Below, one piece after another: positions 3,030-44,605 of a DNA stretch of 64,000 nucleotides. Position numbers and translations under genes: made by a program. Position 1 is the stretch's first letter; every line of letters begins with the position of its first letter. The notes below the pieces were generated by a model. It was given only the letters and a program-made list of their open reading frames with translations, did no database searches and was not told where the DNA came from. Location of the stretch: positions 1 through 64,000 of the forward strand of contig NZ_SMBZ01000015.1 in NCBI RefSeq assembly GCF_004342685.1, given 5' to 3'. Source of the DNA: Sphingobacterium alimentarium (GTDB lineage Bacteria > Bacteroidota > Bacteroidia > Sphingobacteriales > Sphingobacteriaceae).

Positions 3030-4076
3030 TTGAAAAAGTTAGATTTGAACCGTCAAGAGAAGGAAATCGTTGAGCATGCGCTTGATTTTTGGCGTGAAAA
3101 CCAGTTATTAGAAAATGAAAAAGCTACTGAGCTAAAATCAACTATTGATGAGCGAAGTTTTGAATGGAAAGTATTGGCTCGCTATGCATTTTGGGTGGCG
3201 TTGGTGTCCTTGATTTTTTCTGTGGTATCCTTGTTTGCGGACAATACTTTAGAAAAGTTTGTGCAGCAATTTTACGCGACTCCGAATGTGGTGTTTTGTT
3301 TGTTTTTCGCAGGCATAGCCGTATTGTTTTACTATTGGGGCTTTCGCAATAAAAAACTTTATCCGGAGAAGGCTTTTTCCAACGAGACCTTAATGTTGGC
3401 CGGATCTTTCGCTACTGCAGCCTGCATCGGATTCTTAGGTCAGATATTAGATCGGGATAATTATTTCTTTTCTCTGCTGTTTTTTCTTTCCATTGTCATA
3501 TATGGACTGTTGTCGGTCAAATTGCAATCCAAGCTAATCTGGGTTTTTACGTTGGTGGCCCTGGCTATTTGGTTTGCTACAGAAACCGCTTATCGCAGTG
3601 ATTGGGGCTGGAAATTTTGGGGCATGAATTATCCATTGCGATTTACAATTTTTGGGATAATATTGACCCTGTGTGCGGTTTTCGTACAGCCTAAGTTTAA
3701 TTCGCTTAAACCTTTTAAGTCGACCAGTGTTGTCATCGGCTTACTGTATAGCATGATTGCATTATGGTGCTTGTCCATTTTTGGAAATTACAGTGACTTT
3801 GACGCTTGGACACAAATCCGGCAGTATGAGATATTGTATTGGGGTATTTTGGCTATACTATTATCGTTGGGTCTAGCTATCTATGGATTGAAGCGTAAGG
3901 ATAATGTGCTGCGCGATATCGGCTTTGTGTTCTTTCTGCTCAATTTATATACCCGGTTTGTGGAATATTTATGGGATAATATTAATCGGACAATCTTTTT
4001 CCTGATACTGGCTGTATCATTTTGGGTGGTCGGCAGATGGTCCGAAAAAATATGGAAGAACAAGGCTAGAGTCTGA
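3030..4076 (+). CDS. Polytopic membrane protein, DUF2157-like
   Basis: This is a predicted inner-membrane protein of 348 residues. A charged N-terminal cytoplasmic segment (residues 1-48) is followed by about nine or ten hydrophobic helices (roughly 52-72, 85-105, 113-135, 140-160 and onward) and a basic C-terminus. The organisation resembles DUF2157 proteins of Bacteroidota, whose function is unknown. The start is a TTG at 3030. An in-frame stop lies just upstream and no ATG occurs before the first membrane helix, so TTG is the only reasonable choice. It is transcribed away from uvrA and ends at a bidirectional terminator shared with the OsmC gene. The family assignment is moderate. Confidence 0.75.
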   Translation: MKKLDLNRQEKEIVEHALDFWRENQLLENEKATELKSTIDERSFEWKVLARYAFWVALVSLIFSVVSLFADNTLEKFVQQFYATPNVVFCLFFAGIAVLFYYWGFRNKKLYPEKAFSNETLMLAGSFATAACIGFLGQILDRDNYFFSLLFFLSIVIYGLLSVKLQSKLIWVFTLVALAIWFATETAYRSDWGWKFWGMNYPLRFTIFGIILTLCAVFVQPKFNSLKPFKSTSVVIGLLYSMIALWCLSIFGNYSDFDAWTQIRQYEILYWGILAILLSLGLAIYGLKRKDNVLRDIGFVFFLLNLYTRFVEYLWDNINRTIFFLILAVSFWVVGRWSEKIWKNKARV

Positions 4077-8913: not shown

Positions 8914-9852
8914 ATGGCAGAAAAAGTAGCTGAAGTAATTAATAAGTCTGAAAACGAAATAAAGACGAATAAAGACAGATCTAAGATTTATTTCTTTATG
9001 GTAGCTATTATTGCCTTGCTAGCCACGAATGTCTATTTCTATGTGAAATATAAATCGTCCGGCGAGAAGCTATATACCCTAACCCTTCAGAAGGAAAAGC
9101 TGCAAATTGAGATTGATAGAATAGAAGCGGAACTTGACAATATAGACCGTCAGAATATTCAAGATTTACCTGCAGAAGTCGTGCAGCAGCAACAGAATGC
9201 GCGTCAAATAATTGCTGATTTGCGGTCCGCATTAGAAGAAAATAATGTTTCTGATAGCCAAATCCAAATAGCGAATACACAGGTTGAGACATTGAAAAAC
9301 AACGTCTCTAAGTTGTTGAATGAAGTGAACGATCTCAAGATTCAGAACGAAATGCTGAAACGAGAGAATGTCGAACTCCAAGGAACAGTACGTGAAAAAA
9401 TTACGACCGTAGAAAAATTGACTAATGATAATTCGGCACTAAATGAAAAAGTGATGATCGCAGCGTCGCTCAAAGTGTCCAATATCGTCATAAATGGTGT
9501 AGAACAGAAAAAGAATGGCAATTTGGAAATAGAAACCAGAGCCAAACGCGCCGATAAATTACAGATCAAGTTTACCATTGTAGATAATCCACTTGCCAAA
9601 AAAGGCAGAAAAGAAATATATGCACGTGTGATAGATCCACAAGGTAATCTTATCGCGGCAAGTAACGATGTATTCTATGTACATGGCGATAAATTACAGT
9701 ATACATTCAAAGAGAATATAAATTTCACCAATAATGGTGAAGAGTATCAACTGTTATGGAGTGATAACCATAAGCTTAAGAAAGGCGCTTATACCGTATT
9801 ATTATATGCTGATAATGCGATCATGGGACGGTCTAGCGTAGTACTGAAATAG
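8914..9852 (+). CDS. Membrane-anchored coiled-coil protein of unknown function
   Basis: The 312-residue protein starts with a lysine-rich cytoplasmic tail, has one transmembrane helix (about 25-45), then a long coiled coil (about 50-185) rich in Glu, Gln, Asn and Lys heptads. A C-terminal beta-rich domain (about 190-312) with an Ig-like pattern (KIYARVIDPQGNLI-type strands) follows. The topology suggests an envelope-spanning spacer or scaffold with its globular domain in the periplasm. No enzymatic motif is seen. It has its own leader and a strong terminator, so it is probably a single-gene unit. Confidence 0.75.
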   Translation: MAEKVAEVINKSENEIKTNKDRSKIYFFMVAIIALLATNVYFYVKYKSSGEKLYTLTLQKEKLQIEIDRIEAELDNIDRQNIQDLPAEVVQQQQNARQIIADLRSALEENNVSDSQIQIANTQVETLKNNVSKLLNEVNDLKIQNEMLKRENVELQGTVREKITTVEKLTNDNSALNEKVMIAASLKVSNIVINGVEQKKNGNLEIETRAKRADKLQIKFTIVDNPLAKKGRKEIYARVIDPQGNLIAASNDVFYVHGDKLQYTFKENINFTNNGEEYQLLWSDNHKLKKGAYTVLLYADNAIMGRSSVVLK

Positions 9853-9894
9853 AAAAGTTATTAAGATAAATAAGCACACTTTATACGTTTTATT

Positions 9895-9936
9895 AAGAGA
9901 GCCTTCTAATCACTAGAAGGCTCTCTTACTTTTTTG
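9895..9936 (+). terminator. Terminator after the coiled-coil protein gene
   Basis: A 14-bp stem (9895-9908 with 9914-9927) has a 5-nt loop and is followed by a T-rich tract ending near 9936. Confidence 0.85.
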
Positions 9937-10151
9937 AGATTTATATGTGATACTAAGTCCTACAATATCATATGTTAAGCGAACCTATCTGTTGTAATTC
10001 TCCCAGGAGGAATAGATTAATCATAGGTGGAGTAAAATAAATTTCCCTAGGTCTTTTGTAAGAAAGTACGATTAATACCAATAGAGGAGAGGGATTTTAT
10101 AATTCTGACCTTGTAGATAATGTACCGAATCGATAATATACCGGGTAAAAG
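9937..10151. other. Gene-free intergenic stretch
   Basis: About 215 bp lie between two convergent terminators, within a 354-bp gene-free gap. I see no open frame of note, no repeat and no RNA-like structure. The AGGAGG-like string near 10005 is not followed by a usable start and frame. Confidence 0.5.
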
Positions 10152-10190
10152 AAAAGGGATATGAATTCATCATATCCCTTTTGGTACTAT
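10152..10190 (-). terminator. Terminator after the TerC gene
   Basis: A 13-bp perfect stem (10152-10164 with 10170-10182) has a 5-nt loop and a T-rich tract on the minus strand. It lies 25 bp after the TerC-family stop codon. Confidence 0.8.
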
Positions 10191-10206
10191 TTATAATATT
10201 TTGTTT

Positions 10207-11259
10207 CTACGTGGTATAATCTTTCTTTTTCGGAAACATAAGTGAGGCAATGACACTTATTGCTAATATACCAACGATAATAATTAGAGAATGAGAAGTG
10301 GTGAATCCCCATTCTTTAAGGTAGCTATGTAAAAGCATTTTCGCTCCGATAAATACCAATAGGAAGGCCAGTCCGACTTTCAAATAGTGGAATTTGTCGA
10401 TAATATTTACCAATAAGAAGAACATCGATCTTAAGCCTAATACCGCGAAAATATTTGAGAAAAATACAATGTATGGATCTTTAGTCACCGAAAATATTGC
10501 TGGAATAGAATCTACAGCAAAGATTAAATCTGTAAACTCAATAACTAATAATACTAAGAATAATGGTGTTACATATTTTACGCCATTTTCTACAACGAAA
10601 AATTTACCGCTATCTAGTTTATGTGTTACTTTGAAATACTTCGAAGCGAACTTCACGACCGGATGATTTTGTGGATCTACTTCTTCCTCTTGGTTGCGGT
10701 TGATATACATCATTACACCGGTATACACCAAGAATGCACCGAAAACGTACAATATCCATCCGAACTTAGCGATCAACGCTGCACCGATAAAAATAAATAT
10801 ACAACGCATTAGGATAGCACCGATGATACCCCATACCAATACCTTATGGTAATACTTTTCTGGAATACCAAACGAAGTAAATAGCAATACCATGACGAAG
10901 ATATTGTCAATAGATAAGGCATACTCAACGACATAACCCGTCAAATATTCCAATGTAAGGGCTTTATTATAGGCTTGTATACTGGCAGCCAAGTCGTTCT
11001 CTACTATTTTTACATCATGTAGATGCTTGCTGATGATCTCGCGAAGGTGGCCGAAATCATGTACATTATGAAGCTCATTACCCCAAAAATAAAGAATGGC
11101 CCCAAAGCCCAAGGCGAAGGACACCCAAATTACTGACATAATCGCAGCAACCTTTAAGCTGACAGGCTTATCACTTTTGCTAAACAACCCTAAATCGATA
11201 GCAAGCATGAGGATTATGAATATTATAAATCCTCCAAAAAACATTAGTTCGTGACTCAT
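10207..11259 (-). CDS. TerC/Alx-family integral membrane protein
   Basis: TerC-family proteins are inner-membrane carriers linked to metal (especially manganese) efflux and to tellurite resistance. The 350-residue protein has about nine membrane helices. Family hallmarks are the acidic membrane motifs ALSIDNIFVMVLL and EFTDLIFAVDSIPAIF, plus the charged loop around residues 180-210. It resembles Alx/YgjT. It follows the polyprenyl synthase gene with a 1-nt gap between stop and ATG, so the two are almost certainly co-transcribed and perhaps translationally coupled. The reason for that pairing is not obvious. Confidence 0.9.
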   Translation of the reverse strand: MSHELMFFGGFIIFIILMLAIDLGLFSKSDKPVSLKVAAIMSVIWVSFALGFGAILYFWGNELHNVHDFGHLREIISKHLHDVKIVENDLAASIQAYNKALTLEYLTGYVVEYALSIDNIFVMVLLFTSFGIPEKYYHKVLVWGIIGAILMRCIFIFIGAALIAKFGWILYVFGAFLVYTGVMMYINRNQEEEVDPQNHPVVKFASKYFKVTHKLDSGKFFVVENGVKYVTPLFLVLLVIEFTDLIFAVDSIPAIFSVTKDPYIVFFSNIFAVLGLRSMFFLLVNIIDKFHYLKVGLAFLLVFIGAKMLLHSYLKEWGFTTSHSLIIIVGILAISVIASLMFPKKKDYTT

Positions 11260-37786: not shown

Positions 37787-38257
37787 CTAATTTAATAAAT
37801 TTAATATTTCCTCCAGATATTTCTTATCTATTTCACTAAAATTATCTAACAATTCGCTATCCACATCCAATACTCCTGCTATCTTATTGTTAATGTACAG
37901 CGGCAATACAATTTCGGACTTGGATTGAGAGCTACAAGCGATATGTCCCGGAAATTCGTCCACATTCGGTACTATTAATGTTTCTTCTTTAGCCCATGCT
38001 GTCCCGCATACACCTCTTTTGTAAGCTATTCTTGTACAAGCCACGGGGCCTTGGAATGGACCCAGCACTAATTCGTTATCTTTGACCAGATAAAAACCCA
38101 CCCAAAAGAAGTTGAATTGCTCTTTTAGTGCGGCACTAATATTAGCCAGATTCGCAATTAGATCTTCTTCTCCTGTAAGTAATGCTTTAATTTGAGGGAC
38201 GAGGCTTTTGTATTGCTCTTCTCTGTCTCCCGCGATGATTTTTAAGTCCTCTGCCAT
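37787..38257 (-). CDS. msrC: Free methionine-(R)-sulfoxide reductase (GAF domain)
   Basis: This GAF-domain enzyme reduces free methionine-R-sulfoxide using thioredoxin. From the ATG at 38257 it has 156 residues, the usual length. The three active cysteines are present: Cys74 (PVACTRI), Cys84 (RGVCGTAW) and Cys108 (GHIACSSQSKSE), with the VLDVDS end motif. The TTG at 38278 in the same frame overlaps a promoter box and is rejected as start. It is one of several oxidative-stress genes in this window. Confidence 0.93.
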   Translation of the reverse strand: MAEDLKIIAGDREEQYKSLVPQIKALLTGEEDLIANLANISAALKEQFNFFWVGFYLVKDNELVLGPFQGPVACTRIAYKRGVCGTAWAKEETLIVPNVDEFPGHIACSSQSKSEIVLPLYINNKIAGVLDVDSELLDNFSEIDKKYLEEILNLLN

Positions 38258-38275
38258 AGTGTATTTGTAAGAATC

Positions 38276-38283
38276 CAAAGATA
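38276..38283 (-). promoter_or_regulatory. msrC promoter -7 box (TATCTTTG)
   Basis: A full TAnnTTTG match 19 nt upstream of the msrC ATG, implying a leader of about 12-14 nt. It overlaps the alternative TTG start. Confidence 0.5.
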
Positions 38284-38321: not shown

Positions 38322-41300
38322 TTATTGAAATAATATTCTCAAATTGAATCCAAAATAGGTGTAAGAAGTTGCAAATGTCTGCGATGTATATGGACGGATG
38401 GCATTGCTATTATAAAATAGACGAATGTTAAATAAACGATTAATGGTATAATCCAAAGAAGGGTTGAAAGTTAGGCTTTTATTACCGCCTGTGATCTCTT
38501 CATAACTTACTCCGGTGCGGTACATCCCGATGCGGCGATCGTTCAATGCAAAATCCATCCGGAAATTCATGTCATTTTTCCAATTGCGATCAGCGAAAAT
38601 CTGGAAAGGCAAACGGGCATTGAGTTTACGATAGCCTATTCCGGCGATATAGGACTTTTCTTCGAGGGTGGACAATTGGCTGTTTTCTAAGCTTAAACTG
38701 ACATCCCGACTTTTTCTGAATTCGGAAGACAGGCTGAAATTGTTGGCAAATCTAAAATCAAGACCTATCAATGGCAAGAATCGATCAGTTAGGGTGATTT
38801 GGGTATATTGATGTTGGGGTATAAAATTGTTGTTTATATCTCTTACGAATGGAAAATTTTCTTCTCTCTGGAAAAGTGGATTCGAATGATAGTTAACAAT
38901 ATTATAGACCCACGCCGCGTACGATGGTCTAATAGGAATTTGCTGTTGACATAGGGATTGAGACTGGATAATTGGTAAAATATCGGATCGATAATGTAAA
39001 GGGCCATATGCGCGCGGTTATATACGTAGGTCAAGTCGTTGAATAAAGCGTGCTCGGGGAAAAGTTGCGGTGTAGGCGCGATCTGCCAACCCTGAGCATT
39101 GTTGATGGTAATAAAGCTAAAATTATTTTCAAAATCATCGAGATAAGCTACACCTGCTTCATCATTTTCTGCATTCAGTGTTTTGGTGTATCCGTATCGA
39201 GCATGTGCGAGTTTACCATAGAAACTTATTGTAGACTCTTCATTGGTTTTGAGGAATGGCAACTTGTCCAGCAAGCGTGTGAGCCATGGCGTGGATGTGG
39301 AATAATTTATGTCCGCACCCAGCATGGTATTGGAAATAGATTCTGCGCCGACATACACTTTTTCCGAAAATGGTCGCTCATTCATTTTCATGAATGTCGC
39401 TCCAATCATTAAATTCTTATTAGGGATATAATCCAATCTTCCACCTATAAAAGTCTTTTGTTGAGCACCAAAAATTGCATTATCGTCAATTTGCACACGG
39501 AGCGTATTGTTATATAAAAGATACGCCGGGTTTATAATTCTAAGGGTGCCGGATTCATATTCTATGCTGTAATCTGTATTTTCTTGCAGCAATAAAGCGC
39601 CGGCATAAACCTTTACCCTATTGGGCTGTAGATTAAAAACTCCTAACTGATGTTCTGTAGTATGATTGGATTGTACAGTCCCCCGAATGAAATAGCGGTC
39701 TTTGTGGCTATAGTTATATTTGGCTTCGGCTTGAGTAAGGGTATATAATTCGGGAAAAGTATAATTCTCTGCTAGCTCTGGCTCGCTGAACTGATTTTGC
39801 AAGTCTATACCCAAGGGCTCGGTGTGTGGAAATATTAACTTTCCTGCTGTATTATCAATGGTGATGCCGTCTATAAAATCGAAAAAACCATCCGGACCCA
39901 TGGAGTTGTTTTGTGCCAATCGATCTAATCCCGTAAGTTCAAGCCAAGATCTGTTTGCTGTGTTTGTTCCTTCGAGGATTAGCGGATTCTCTGTGGCATT
40001 TTTAGTGTCTGTTCTTACGATCTGTATACTCATATCCTGCTCGCGGAGGTGATTGCTACCTAATGCATAAATATTTTTCATCATTAACTTCCACGTAGGT
40101 AGCCTGGTGTTGAGCGTTTCATTTTTGAGGAGTTTTGTATATAGAAATTTAGGATTTGAGGCATCAAAAGGAAGATCCGTCGACAATTCGCCGACCTGAT
40201 AATCTTTGCCGTTGGCCGTATAACGATAGGCAACTGCTAAGACTTGATCCTCAATGAGGGGAAAGTTTAAGGATATGTAGCCTAATTTTCGGTGTACACG
40301 AAAGTCTTGACCTTCTATTAGCTTCTGTGCTGCGCTTAATTTGACATAATTGTCGGTGCCATCACTGGTACTGAAAAAAGAATTGACAAATCCGCTATTC
40401 GGATCGCGACCATTTTCTGCGAGAAGGTCCAACAGATTATTGGATGCTGAAGGTAAAGAGGTATTTGGCAGTACGGCGCCGGGTTGACTCACAATGGACG
40501 AATTGTAAGGAGTATGTTCTGCCAAATCCAACAGAGCTAGAATATCCCGTGCACCTTCGCTGCGGTTATTTCTATTGGTTACCCATATTTCAATTGTAGT
40601 AATTTGTATGGGAGATTTTATAAAAAGTGCATTTTCTAAACTTTTGTTATAATGATCCCGAAAATATTGCGCGAGAAAATAATGTTGATTTGCTTCATAA
40701 TCGCTCAGCGAAATATTGATTTGCTGTTGGGATTTCCCCTTGGTAATGATGATTTCCTGTTTGTCGGCACGCTTTTGTGATAGTACGCCCGTAAAGTTTA
40801 GTTTTCCAACGTGGAGTTGCGTTTTGATTCCAAATAAGCCTTCTGTGCCTCCCAGCAATTGGGAACGTGTGGTGAAATTTACATTGCCAATTTCCAACCT
40901 TTGTAAGATGTCATCGGGTTTGCCGAGGTAGTCAAATTTGATTTGATTCTCGAAATCAAATTCTCCTTCGGAGCTGAAGTTAGCGGTCACCTGTCCACAT
41001 TCACCTATTTTTCCAACCAAATTGAGGTTGAAATTTTGCTCAAAATCTAAGCCCCATAGCTTACGATGCCGCTCCCTGAGGTGCGGATTTTCGCTGCTGC
41101 TACGTTGAGCCATTACGGCTATATCTACATTTCCTTTGGGTACGAGATCAATTGCATTTCCTCCAAATATGCGCTCAAAAGTGGGACTACGAATGATGGA
41201 TAGGTTGTAAAAGTTGATTCGATAAGGGCGCAGGAGTAGTAGTCGTATTGTTATTGGTCTGCCAATTATTTTTCTTAGTCACATGGGATGTATAAGTGCT

Positions 41301-41585
41301 GAACTGCTCGCGATTTAAGTATTAAGTGCTAAAAATACCGTTCGATCTCTGTGGATAAATTTGAAATAATTTGCTTTGCGGGTGATAGCTATATGCTGTA
41401 GCAAAACGCGTCGAATCGTACGCAAGGGGAAAAGAGTACTTATTTTTTAAAATGCGATGCTGAAACCATGAATATCGTAAAGTATCACCTAAAGAAATAA
41501 ATGATTGGGCCTTGCTCACACAGCATGGCAAGATAAAAATCACAAATAGGCTCAAGAACCGTAGATTCTTCAAGGTTAACGCCAC
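38322..41585 (-). pseudogene. sprA: sprA pseudogene (type 9 secretion outer-membrane translocon)
   Basis: SprA is the very large (about 2,300-2,400 residues) barrel that forms the type 9 secretion channel. Here only about 1,080 codons remain. The 5' part (41585-41325) encodes a signal peptide and the start of the mature region. It stops at TAA (41322-41324) but continues in the same frame with YLNREQFSTY. A frameshift between about 41190 and 41280 restores a frame with ERIFGGNAIDLVPKGN and then 756 codons of SprA sequence. Near 38850-38960 an out-of-frame junction skips the central barrel and resumes with the C-terminal end (ITLTDRFLPLIGLDFRF to the final LRILFQ). The neighbours ruvA and maeB are its usual ones. 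Confidence 0.88.
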
Positions 41586-41743: not shown

Positions 41744-42328
41744 TTATAATTTTTTCAAGGCCAGCTTGATCATTTGTTCGACTGTCAGTGACTCGTCCGT
41801 CTGTACGATGGAAGAGAGTACTTTCTCGACTTGGTTTTTGGCAAAGCCTAACATCACCAATGCCGATAGTGCTTCGTCAGGAACCGATTGTCTAGCTATC
41901 GGTAATGGCAATAAAGCATCATCACCTTGCTTTTTCAGTTTATCCTGAAGTTCTAAAATCACCCGCTGTGCTGTTTTGGGACCAATGCCTTTGATTTTTT
42001 GAATCAAAGCGACCTGACCATTTACAATCGCGGATTGTATCTCCTCGGGTGTACTTGAGGAGAGCATCATTCGGCCTGTATTCGGCCCGATGCCCGATAC
42101 TGAAATCAAGTGGTTGAATAAATGACGTTCGCCTTCAGTCGCAAAACCATATAGCGCATGCGCATCTTCTCTGACCTGAAAGGAGACATACAATTTGCAG
42201 TTTTCCTGATCTTTGATCAGCGAGTAAGTTGTCAACGAAATATGGATGTGATATCCAATCCCGCCCACCTCAAGAATGACATGAGTAGGGGCTTTGAATA
42301 CTAATTTGCCGTTGAAGTAATCGTACAT
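41744..42328 (-). CDS. ruvA: Holliday junction branch migration protein RuvA
   Basis: RuvA binds four-way DNA junctions and recruits RuvB helicase in recombinational repair. The 194-residue protein has the OB-fold domain I (MYDYFNGKLVFKAPTHVILE), two helix-hairpin-helix motifs in domain II (LISVSGIGPNTGRMML and KIKGIGPKTAQRVILEL) and the C-terminal domain III (DEALSALVMLGFAKNQVEKVL). All parts are intact. It is 3 bp after maeB. Confidence 0.97.
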   Translation of the reverse strand: MYDYFNGKLVFKAPTHVILEVGGIGYHIHISLTTYSLIKDQENCKLYVSFQVREDAHALYGFATEGERHLFNHLISVSGIGPNTGRMMLSSSTPEEIQSAIVNGQVALIQKIKGIGPKTAQRVILELQDKLKKQGDDALLPLPIARQSVPDEALSALVMLGFAKNQVEKVLSSIVQTDESLTVEQMIKLALKKL

Positions 42329-42331
42329 TTT

Positions 42332-44605
42332 TTATCGTTTATCGTGAGATTGTGCATCTACTACCGCAATCGTGACCATATTTACTATTTCACGTACAGA
42401 GCTATCCAATTGTAATACGTGTACCGGTTTATTCATCCCCAAAAGAATAGGTCCAACCGCTTCCGCATTACCCACTTCTTGCAACATTTTGTAAGCAATA
42501 TTCCCAGATTCCAAATTTGGAAAAATCAACGTATTGGCAGCTTCACCATTTAGCGTGCTAAAAGGGAAATTGGATTTCAATAAGTCGCTATTCAATGCAA
42601 AGTTGGCTTGCAATTCACCATCCACAATCATGTCTGGATGATTTTTGTGTAAAATGCGCACTGCTTCACGTGTTTTAATGGACGTAGGACCATCATTTGC
42701 ACCAAAGTTGGAGTACGATAATAAAGCGACGCGAGGTTTTACATTAAAGCCACGCACTGTTTTTTCTATTAATACAGTGATATCCGCTAGCTCTTCTGCT
42801 GTAGGGTCCACATTTACCGTTGTATCTCCAAAGAATAACGGACCTTTTTCAGTCAACATCATATACATACCTGCTATACGGCTTCCCGGTTTAGCACCAA
42901 TCACTTGCAATGCAGGCTTGATTGTAGACGCATAATTGCGGGTCAATCCTGAGATTAGCGTATCGGCATCCCCAAATTCTACCATGCTGGCAGCGTAGTA
43001 GTTTCTGTTGGTAATGAGTTGTTTAGCGTCGAATTTTGACAAACCACGGCGTTGACGTTTCTTATATAGATTCTCTACATACTCGTTGAATCGTGCTGTT
43101 TCTGATTCTTCGCGCGGATCAATGATAGTTACATCATTTAATTCGAACGCATATTCATCAATTAGATTGCTGATTTTGTTTTTATTACCCAATAAAATTG
43201 GAATAGCAATTCCTTCTTCTTTGACGATTTGCGCTGCACGCAATGTTTTATAGTTGTCCGCTTCAGCAAATACCACCCGTTTTGGGTTGTTTTTTGCAAC
43301 GGCAGAAAGATGGCGCATAATGCCATCATCTTTACCTAATCTTTTGCGCAACTCCTCTTTGTAAAGATCCCAATTCTCAATTGTTTTGCGTGCTACACCA
43401 GATTCAATAGCAGCTTTAGCTACGGCGATTGAAACTTCTGTAATCAAGCGAGGGTCTGTCGGTTTAGGAATAACATAGTCTGTTCCAAAGCGAAGATTGC
43501 TTGTGTTGTATGCTTGGTTAACTTCCTCCGGTACTGGTTCTTTAGCTAGTCGTGCGATAGCGTGAACAGCCGCGATTTTCATGGCTTCGTTAATAGCTGT
43601 CGCGCGCACATCGAGAGCACCGCGGAATATGTAAGGGAATCCTAATACGTTATTTACTTGATTCGGGAAATCCGAGCGTCCTGTTCCCATAATAATATCA
43701 TCACGAGTAGCGATAGCCAAGTCGTAAGCAATTTCTGGGTTAGGGTTTGCCATAGCCAATACGATAGGTTTTGCAGCCATCGTTTTTAACATATCGGCTG
43801 TAAGCACATCTGCTGCAGATAGTCCAATGAATACGTCTGCACCATTCACCGCATCTTCCAATGTATGTATATCACGGTTTGTAGCCCACTCCGCTTTTGT
43901 TGGATCCAGGTTTTCGCGGTCTGCACGAATCACCCCTTTACTATCCAACATGACGATATTTTCTTTTTTTGCACCTACAGCAACATACATCGCTGTACAA
44001 GAGATTGCGGCAGCACCAGCACCATTCACCACAATTTTGACATCCGCAATGTTTTTTTCTTGCAGTTCACAGGCATTGATCAAAGCGGCTCCGGAAATAA
44101 TTGCCGTACCGTGTTGATCATCATGCATCACAGGAATATTCATCTCCGCTTTTAGGCGTCTTTCGATTTCGAAACACTCCGGCGCTTTGATATCTTCTAG
44201 GTTAATACCTCCAAAAGTAGGCTCCATAGCTTTGACGATTCTCACAAATTCGTCTACATCTTTGGTATCTAGTTCTATGTCAAATACATCTATGTCGGCA
44301 AAAATCTTGAATAATAAGCCTTTTCCTTCCATTACCGGCTTACCCGCTTGGGCGCCAATATCACCCAAACCTAATACTGCAGTTCCATTACTGATTACGG
44401 CTACTAGATTGCCTTTTGTCGTATATTTATACGCATCTTCAGGGTTGTTGGCAATAGCCAAACAAGGCTCTGCCACACCTGGAGAGTACGCTAATGATAA
44501 GTCTCTTTGCGAGTTATAAGGTTTTGTAGGAACAACTGCAATTTTCCCAGGACGTCCCATTGCATGATAATTTAGGGCATCCTTTTTTCTATTAATATTG
44601 CTCAT
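42332..44605 (-). CDS. maeB: NADP-dependent malic enzyme with phosphotransacetylase domain (MaeB)
   Basis: MaeB oxidatively decarboxylates malate to pyruvate, making NADPH. The 757-residue protein is the hybrid form: the malic enzyme domain (1 to about 420, with YSPGVAEPCLAIA, the VMHDDQHGTAI segment and the NAD-binding VVNGAGAAAI) and a C-terminal phosphate-acetyltransferase-like domain (about 430-757, with RVVFAEADNYKTLRAA, GDTTVNVDPTAEELADI and the final LD.SVREIVNMV). The C-terminal domain is regulatory in characterised homologues rather than a transacetylase. It is co-transcribed with ruvA. Confidence 0.96.
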   Translation of the reverse strand: MSNINRKKDALNYHAMGRPGKIAVVPTKPYNSQRDLSLAYSPGVAEPCLAIANNPEDAYKYTTKGNLVAVISNGTAVLGLGDIGAQAGKPVMEGKGLLFKIFADIDVFDIELDTKDVDEFVRIVKAMEPTFGGINLEDIKAPECFEIERRLKAEMNIPVMHDDQHGTAIISGAALINACELQEKNIADVKIVVNGAGAAAISCTAMYVAVGAKKENIVMLDSKGVIRADRENLDPTKAEWATNRDIHTLEDAVNGADVFIGLSAADVLTADMLKTMAAKPIVLAMANPNPEIAYDLAIATRDDIIMGTGRSDFPNQVNNVLGFPYIFRGALDVRATAINEAMKIAAVHAIARLAKEPVPEEVNQAYNTSNLRFGTDYVIPKPTDPRLITEVSIAVAKAAIESGVARKTIENWDLYKEELRKRLGKDDGIMRHLSAVAKNNPKRVVFAEADNYKTLRAAQIVKEEGIAIPILLGNKNKISNLIDEYAFELNDVTIIDPREESETARFNEYVENLYKKRQRRGLSKFDAKQLITNRNYYAASMVEFGDADTLISGLTRNYASTIKPALQVIGAKPGSRIAGMYMMLTEKGPLFFGDTTVNVDPTAEELADITVLIEKTVRGFNVKPRVALLSYSNFGANDGPTSIKTREAVRILHKNHPDMIVDGELQANFALNSDLLKSNFPFSTLNGEAANTLIFPNLESGNIAYKMLQEVGNAEAVGPILLGMNKPVHVLQLDSSVREIVNMVTIAVVDAQSHDKR

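Follow-up and report, generated by a model that had tools for sequence, protein, structure and literature searches.

What has become of sprA, the gene for the translocon of the type 9 secretion system (T9SS), at its conserved locus in Sphingobacterium alimentarium, and has the secretion system been lost with it? The window, which is the whole stretch of DNA that was analysed (64,000 nucleotides, the beginning of contig NZ_SMBZ01000015.1), carries pieces of this gene on its minus strand, which the initial annotation had read as three collinear fragments of a pseudogene. According to PMC10994853, the SprA of F. johnsoniae forms a barrel of 36 strands that opens laterally, and a hub relays energy from the motor both to the translocon and to gliding. 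Our reading is that the sprA locus is a pseudogene and the T9SS is dead, by a recent loss on this genome's own branch, and we give it a probability of roughly 0.93; that secretion has ceased, and that it ceased recently, we infer from sequence.

Pieces and lesions of sprA

The first piece (41,322 to 41,585, minus strand) is an 87-aa ORF that holds the signal-peptide region and the start of SprA and ends at an in-frame TAA; alone it gave no family match in the profile scan, and by tblastn it matched the intact 2,324-aa SprA of a near relative (G031) at 42% over residues 1–79. When the translations of the frames are set against intact relatives, a SprA-like stretch can be followed past this stop (41,185 to 41,321, minus strand). 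The second piece (38,912 to 41,194, minus strand; ORF called at 38,843–41,113, 756 aa) represents SprA residues of about 133–900 with no internal stop. It scores 778.6 bits against the SprA family model NCBIfam TIGR04189 (cut-off 200; profile positions 113–846 of 2319), matches G031 SprA at 67% over residues 133–900, and aligns, as had been proposed at the outset, with F. johnsoniae SprA (PDB 6h3i, residues 153–920, E 1.4e-118). The third piece (38,322 to 38,906, minus strand; ORF called at 38,322–38,777, 151 aa) contains the final residues, about 194 in number, and the natural stop, and matches G031 SprA at 74% over residues 2131–2324; its TIGR04189 score of 116.8 bits (profile 2169–2318) is by itself below the whole-protein cut-off. 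The three pieces are thus collinear with the SprA of G031, on one strand and at the conserved locus, as first claimed; this locus lies between ruvA and a GAF-domain gene. They are not a chance resemblance, because the five nearest relatives hold a one-frame SprA at the same place.

Three lesions interrupt the gene. The in-frame TAA is found at 41,322–41,324, where the initial annotation had placed it, within SprA-like sequence. The frameshift described there also exists, now placed at about 41,185–41,205 (between about 41190 and 41280 in the earlier description); it ends the SprA-like stretch past the TAA. The third lesion is an internal, out-of-frame deletion with its join at 38,906–38,912 (minus strand): homology extends to residue 900 and resumes at residue 2,131, the corresponding tblastn pieces lie 5 bp apart while the same residues are 3,690 bp apart in G031, and the final 22 or so codons of the 756-aa ORF are out of frame, beyond the join. 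About 1,230 residues (SprA about 901–2,130), or about 3.69 kb, are gone, and not ~1,300 residues and 4 kb as estimated earlier. These are minor adjustments of position and extent to an observation that otherwise holds. With the stop, the frameshift and the 3.69-kb deletion, a single open frame of ~2,300 residues with the whole barrel is absent from the window locus.

Upstream of sprA lies ruvA (41,744 to 42,328, minus strand; TIGR00084, 204.8 bits), which is intact and is the upstream neighbour of sprA across the genus; next to it is a gene called maeB-like after the initial annotation (42,332 to 44,605, minus strand), an ORF matched in 93 of 93 genus genomes, which served as tree and rate marker. 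The two were found together in 93/93 loci. Downstream is a gene for a GAF-domain protein (37,787 to 38,278, minus strand; PF01590, 36.7 bits), which stands near ruvA in relatives both with and without sprA.

The initial annotation had also allowed that a second copy might have replaced this one. The genome (G000; 3,576,798 bases in 107 contigs, completeness 99.98, contamination 0.18) yields two TIGR04189 matches, both being the window fragments. A second sprA was rejected, since neither the 756-aa piece, which retrieved only itself, nor the family model found one in G000. Disabling lesions therefore stand where relatives are intact, and no other copy was found in the genome, which is what is expected of a pseudogene.

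Motor, cargo and carrier genes in the same genome

A search for gldK to gldN, suggested with the initial annotation, revealed a second scar. There is no match in G000 to GldL (TIGR03513), a family present in 81 of the 93 genus genomes. Contig C30 of G000 corresponds to the region around gldKLMN in G031 (L102) but has a gap over these four genes, and the flanks of this locus are collinear and retained (DUF4271 66%, HemD 96%, cupin 91%, nuclease 84%). Between them only residues 1–117 of GldK and 175–341 of GldN remain, adjoining each other in different frames, about 3.8 kb having been deleted between them; gldL and gldM have no match at the scar, and the gldN remnant bears one further stop near its end. 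The motor and ring set of gldK, gldL, gldM and gldN is thus incomplete in G000. A GldKLMN of the B type described below, taking the place of the motor, was considered and rejected, there being no GldL match whatever.

The search for proteins with T9SS sorting domains gave a divided answer, one cargo ortholog being broken and one CHU_C gene still open. The former is orthologous to a type-B cargo protein of 1,203 aa that scores over cut-off for PF13585 and TIGR04131 in both G031 and G009; in G000 it lies in four pieces, with changes of frame, on contigs C44 and C84. Residues from about 922, including the sorting domain, are missing within C84, the homologous sequence there passing straight from residue 921 (C84:1538) to sequence past the gene (C84:1540); the contig break is at a different spot, near residue 442. 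The open gene encodes a 552-aa lamin-tail protein, 63% to that of G031, with 36.1 bits for CHU_C (PF13585, cut-off 27) and 20.6 for TIGR04131, below the cut-off of 35. Also open is a 337-aa PorP/SprF ORF (206.8 bits, cut-off 90.55; 77% to G031). According to the review PMC10202324, type-B cargo requires PorP/SprF rather than PorV and is probably uncleaved, and the genes of type-B cargo and of PorP/SprF are usually clustered; the PorP/SprF genes of G000, G031 and G014 depart from this norm, none having a cargo gene adjoining it in the stretch read.

Two other families were tried as markers of loss and set aside. An ORF of ~140 aa on contig C5 (88,720–88,950) matches the type-A sorting domain TIGR04183, a family with a match in 92 of 93 genomes, SprA-less ones included, mostly to an ORF of about 136–197 aa. 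PorU is useless in this respect, being absent throughout the genus: 0/93 genomes, SprA-bearing ones included, score over cut-off. Since the PorU model works in the family (22 of 151 family genomes over cut-off), a type-B T9SS without PorU seems to be the style of Sphingobacterium, in keeping with the review's account of type-B cargo.

SprA and GldKLMN across the genus

Among the best 80 of 384 loci, the named records with the closest SprA are S. bovisgrunnientis (70%) and S. bovistauri, S. litopenaei and S. composti (67%). SprA is matched in 33 of the 93 genus genomes, G000 included, and not in the other 60; the SprA-bearing genomes comprise 29 with one long frame, one (G048) whose frame is interrupted by a stop close to its start, and two in pieces, G088 (three pieces, two TAA) and G077 (spread over three contigs). 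Contig ends cut the loci of G049, G072, G076, G077, G083 and G088. In G088 the three pieces with stops lie on one contig (L210, 1,592–8,506) of a fragmented draft, and may reflect decay or sequencing error. The five nearest relatives (G031, G014, G008, G010 and G009, of which G008 and G010 are near-copies) hold a SprA of 2,306–2,324 aa in one frame at the same locus, and full-length gldK, gldL, gldM and gldN were found in four of them, G010 being represented by its GldL match alone.

On a tree built from MaeB and RuvA, with G048, G077 and G088 scored as SprA-bearing and G000 as SprA-less, the SprA label requires 9 changes, and well-supported branches force 6 of these. G000 falls inside a supported set of seven rows, and the other six are all SprA-bearing; because it is nested in this way, the loss of SprA in G000 is a separate and late event. 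Within the stretch retrieved for each of the 60 SprA-less loci, tblastn with E up to 1e-4 gave no SprA remnant; in one of them (G003) about 90 bp lie between the aligned parts of ruvA and the GAF gene.

Other parts of the system follow SprA. PorP/SprF scores over cut-off in 31 of 93 genomes, namely 30 of the 32 other SprA-bearing ones (all except G048 and G068) and G000, and in 0 of the remaining 60, two of which have weak matches below cut-off. The type-B sorting domain is over cut-off in 32/93, i.e. 31 of the 32 and the SprA-less G023, whose match (contig C6, 55,362–55,625, in a 761-codon frame) is the top one of the search. In independent tree pairs, SprA and A-type GldL changed on average in the same direction in 5.9 of 6 cases (median p 0.031); SprA and PorP/SprF did so in 3.8 of 6, which is not significant (p 0.125).

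GldKLMN behaves differently. Separating the A and B types of GldL by score and length, and checking the separation by comparison of GldM in 9 loci (GldM of the two types is 53–58% identical), we found among the 60 SprA-less genomes 43 with B-type GldL, 4 with A-type, 2 truncated and 11 with none. The four A-type genomes (G057, G028, G092 and G027, at loci L112 to L115 respectively) have full-length gldK, gldL, gldM and gldN, and neither PorP/SprF nor type-B cargo exceeds its cut-off in them. Between G057 and G027, dN is 0.004–0.021 and dS 0.45–0.67 over the four genes, and this low dN relative to dS indicates strong purifying selection on A-type gldKLMN. In L112 two ORFs stand between hemD and gldK (9,674–10,917), which we take to resemble an insertion-sequence transposase pair.

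The B type forms a cassette in four of the five loci read (L107, 3060–8699; L108, 7701–13314; L109, 3861–9517; L110, 7916–13590), in which GldL is accompanied by GldK, GldN, GldM and an outer-membrane-like protein of 229–253 aa, with a sub-threshold barrel match only. The K, L, M and N models are over cut-offs in L107, and the other cassettes were matched to L107 by blastp; the GldM of L109 (G017) is split into two ORFs and was included in that comparison only in part. In the fifth locus, L117, only L and M are seen. In G087 and G036 (L111, 7,675–8,241; L118, 7,763–8,329) the start of the B-type GldL is shortened and no GldM-sized ORF adjoins it: in these two genomes the B-type cassette is decaying too. 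By raw count B-type GldL occurs in 0 of 32 SprA-bearing genomes against 43 of 61 others; mutual exclusion of the two stays at the level of this count, as with correction for the tree 1–3 of 6 pairs are informative and the effect is not significant.

That some SprA-less relatives keep GldKLMN under purifying selection is the most surprising side result of this study: either GldKLMN has a job of its own without SprA, or these genomes have a translocon invisible to the family model. We would suggest, tentatively and at somewhat less than even odds, that the T9SS comes apart in modules, SprA, PorP/SprF and type-B cargo being lost together, repeatedly, and GldKLMN often being kept for a second, SprA-independent job, with the window genome as the complementary case in which both were lost.

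Age of the loss and comparison with known systems

The initial annotation took the well-preserved codons as a sign of recent decay, and in relative terms this is borne out. Neither the 2.27-kb nor the 0.56-kb remnant contains an internal stop. Changes at codon positions 1 and 2 private to G000 number 80 in the larger remnant and 41 in maeB, a ratio of 2.0, while the same ratio in five intact relatives is 3.8–6.0; the remnant is therefore not racing. There are nevertheless weak signs of relaxed constraint on it. The share of third positions among private changes is 0.34 for this copy against 0.37–0.48, and 0.28 against 0.42–0.60 for the last piece, and dN from G000 to the relatives is 0.21–0.25 versus 0.16–0.22 among the relatives (near-copies left out); maeB of G000 shows the same tendency, its branch being longer. 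Dating by dN/dS was abandoned, since synonymous sites are saturated (pS 0.66–0.87, G000 versus relatives); these statements are relative and carry no date.

The recent loss of the T9SS that had been proposed for this lineage is supported by the intact relatives, the gldKLMN scar, the broken cargo ortholog and the lack of any GldL or second sprA match in the genome. The early stop, the frameshift and the 3.7-kb out-of-frame deletion would prevent the outer-membrane pore from forming, and the second, separate deletion in gldKLMN has removed motor and ring genes. One type-B cargo gene, frameshifted, has lost its sorting domain. This would leave the PorP/SprF carrier and the remaining CHU_C cargo as orphans; selection for a few cargoes had presumably lapsed. 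The long stop-free remnants and the open PorP/SprF and 552-aa CHU_C genes speak against this reading, as does the draft state of the assembly. As the nearest relatives are intact and the genes for the carrier and a CHU_C cargo remain open, we place the loss late on this genome's own branch, and the two open genes make the genome a snapshot of a system in mid-decay.

Four other explanations were weighed. The lesions could be private to a single strain, for example acquired in culture, in a species that keeps its T9SS; one genome of the species was compared and the remnants are little decayed, which favours such an origin, but several separate lesions over three loci call for much change in little time, and the GldN remnant bears its further stop; we consider this unlikely. 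It is much less probable still that a T9SS is working through a translocon and motor too divergent for the family models, with the sprA pseudogene as the replaced copy. The open carrier and cargo genes, and the retention of GldKLMN in SprA-less relatives, would fit such a system; in G000, however, the fragments are the only SprA matches, and neither type of GldL is present. We give slightly less credence again to an assembly or base-calling error that collapsed, in the draft, a gene intact in the cell: the draft does consist of many contigs, with one break inside the broken cargo gene, but a different contig carries another T9SS locus that also suffered an internal deletion, between intact flanks, and the missing stretches occur nowhere else in the genome, with no further SprA match and no GldL match. 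Finally, that the 756-aa fragment, long and open as it is, functions as a protein in its own right can practically be dismissed, as its signal peptide sits in the first piece behind a stop and a frameshift, about 22 of its terminal codons are out of frame, and the motor genes are gone.

A recent loss of the T9SS thus remains the preferred reading. That a familiar secretion system decays has precedent, and the case is in kind ordinary but informative; titles and the beginnings of abstracts in the open-licence literature contained no report of T9SS loss or of SprA-less GldKLMN in Sphingobacterium, which is not to claim their absence from print. The genome offers a half-way case, with pore and motor broken, carrier and one cargo open, and close intact relatives for comparison. 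With at least six forced changes in one genus, it can be asked what drives repeated T9SS loss and in which order the parts are lost, and GldKLMN retained under selection without SprA makes other jobs of the rotary motor directly testable.

Compared with the SprA/Sov translocon of the T9SS (TIGR04189; PDB 6h3i), the sprA of the window shares the sequence, the order of fragments and the locus of the relatives' intact genes, but is in three frames, lacks its central residues and has no full-length product. Like the 60 SprA-less genomes of the genus, G000 is without a working SprA, a condition in which ruvA and the GAF gene can adjoin; unlike them, it still carries the remains of SprA and GldKLMN along with a PorP/SprF gene that is open, where those genomes have no SprA remnant and no PorP/SprF over cut-off. 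G048 resembles it in having a damaged SprA and no type-B cargo over cut-off, and differs in that a single stop (L170, about 3,064–3,484) interrupts an otherwise open frame of 2,189 codons, gldKLMN is full-length and PorP/SprF has no match; it is perhaps another T9SS entering decay.
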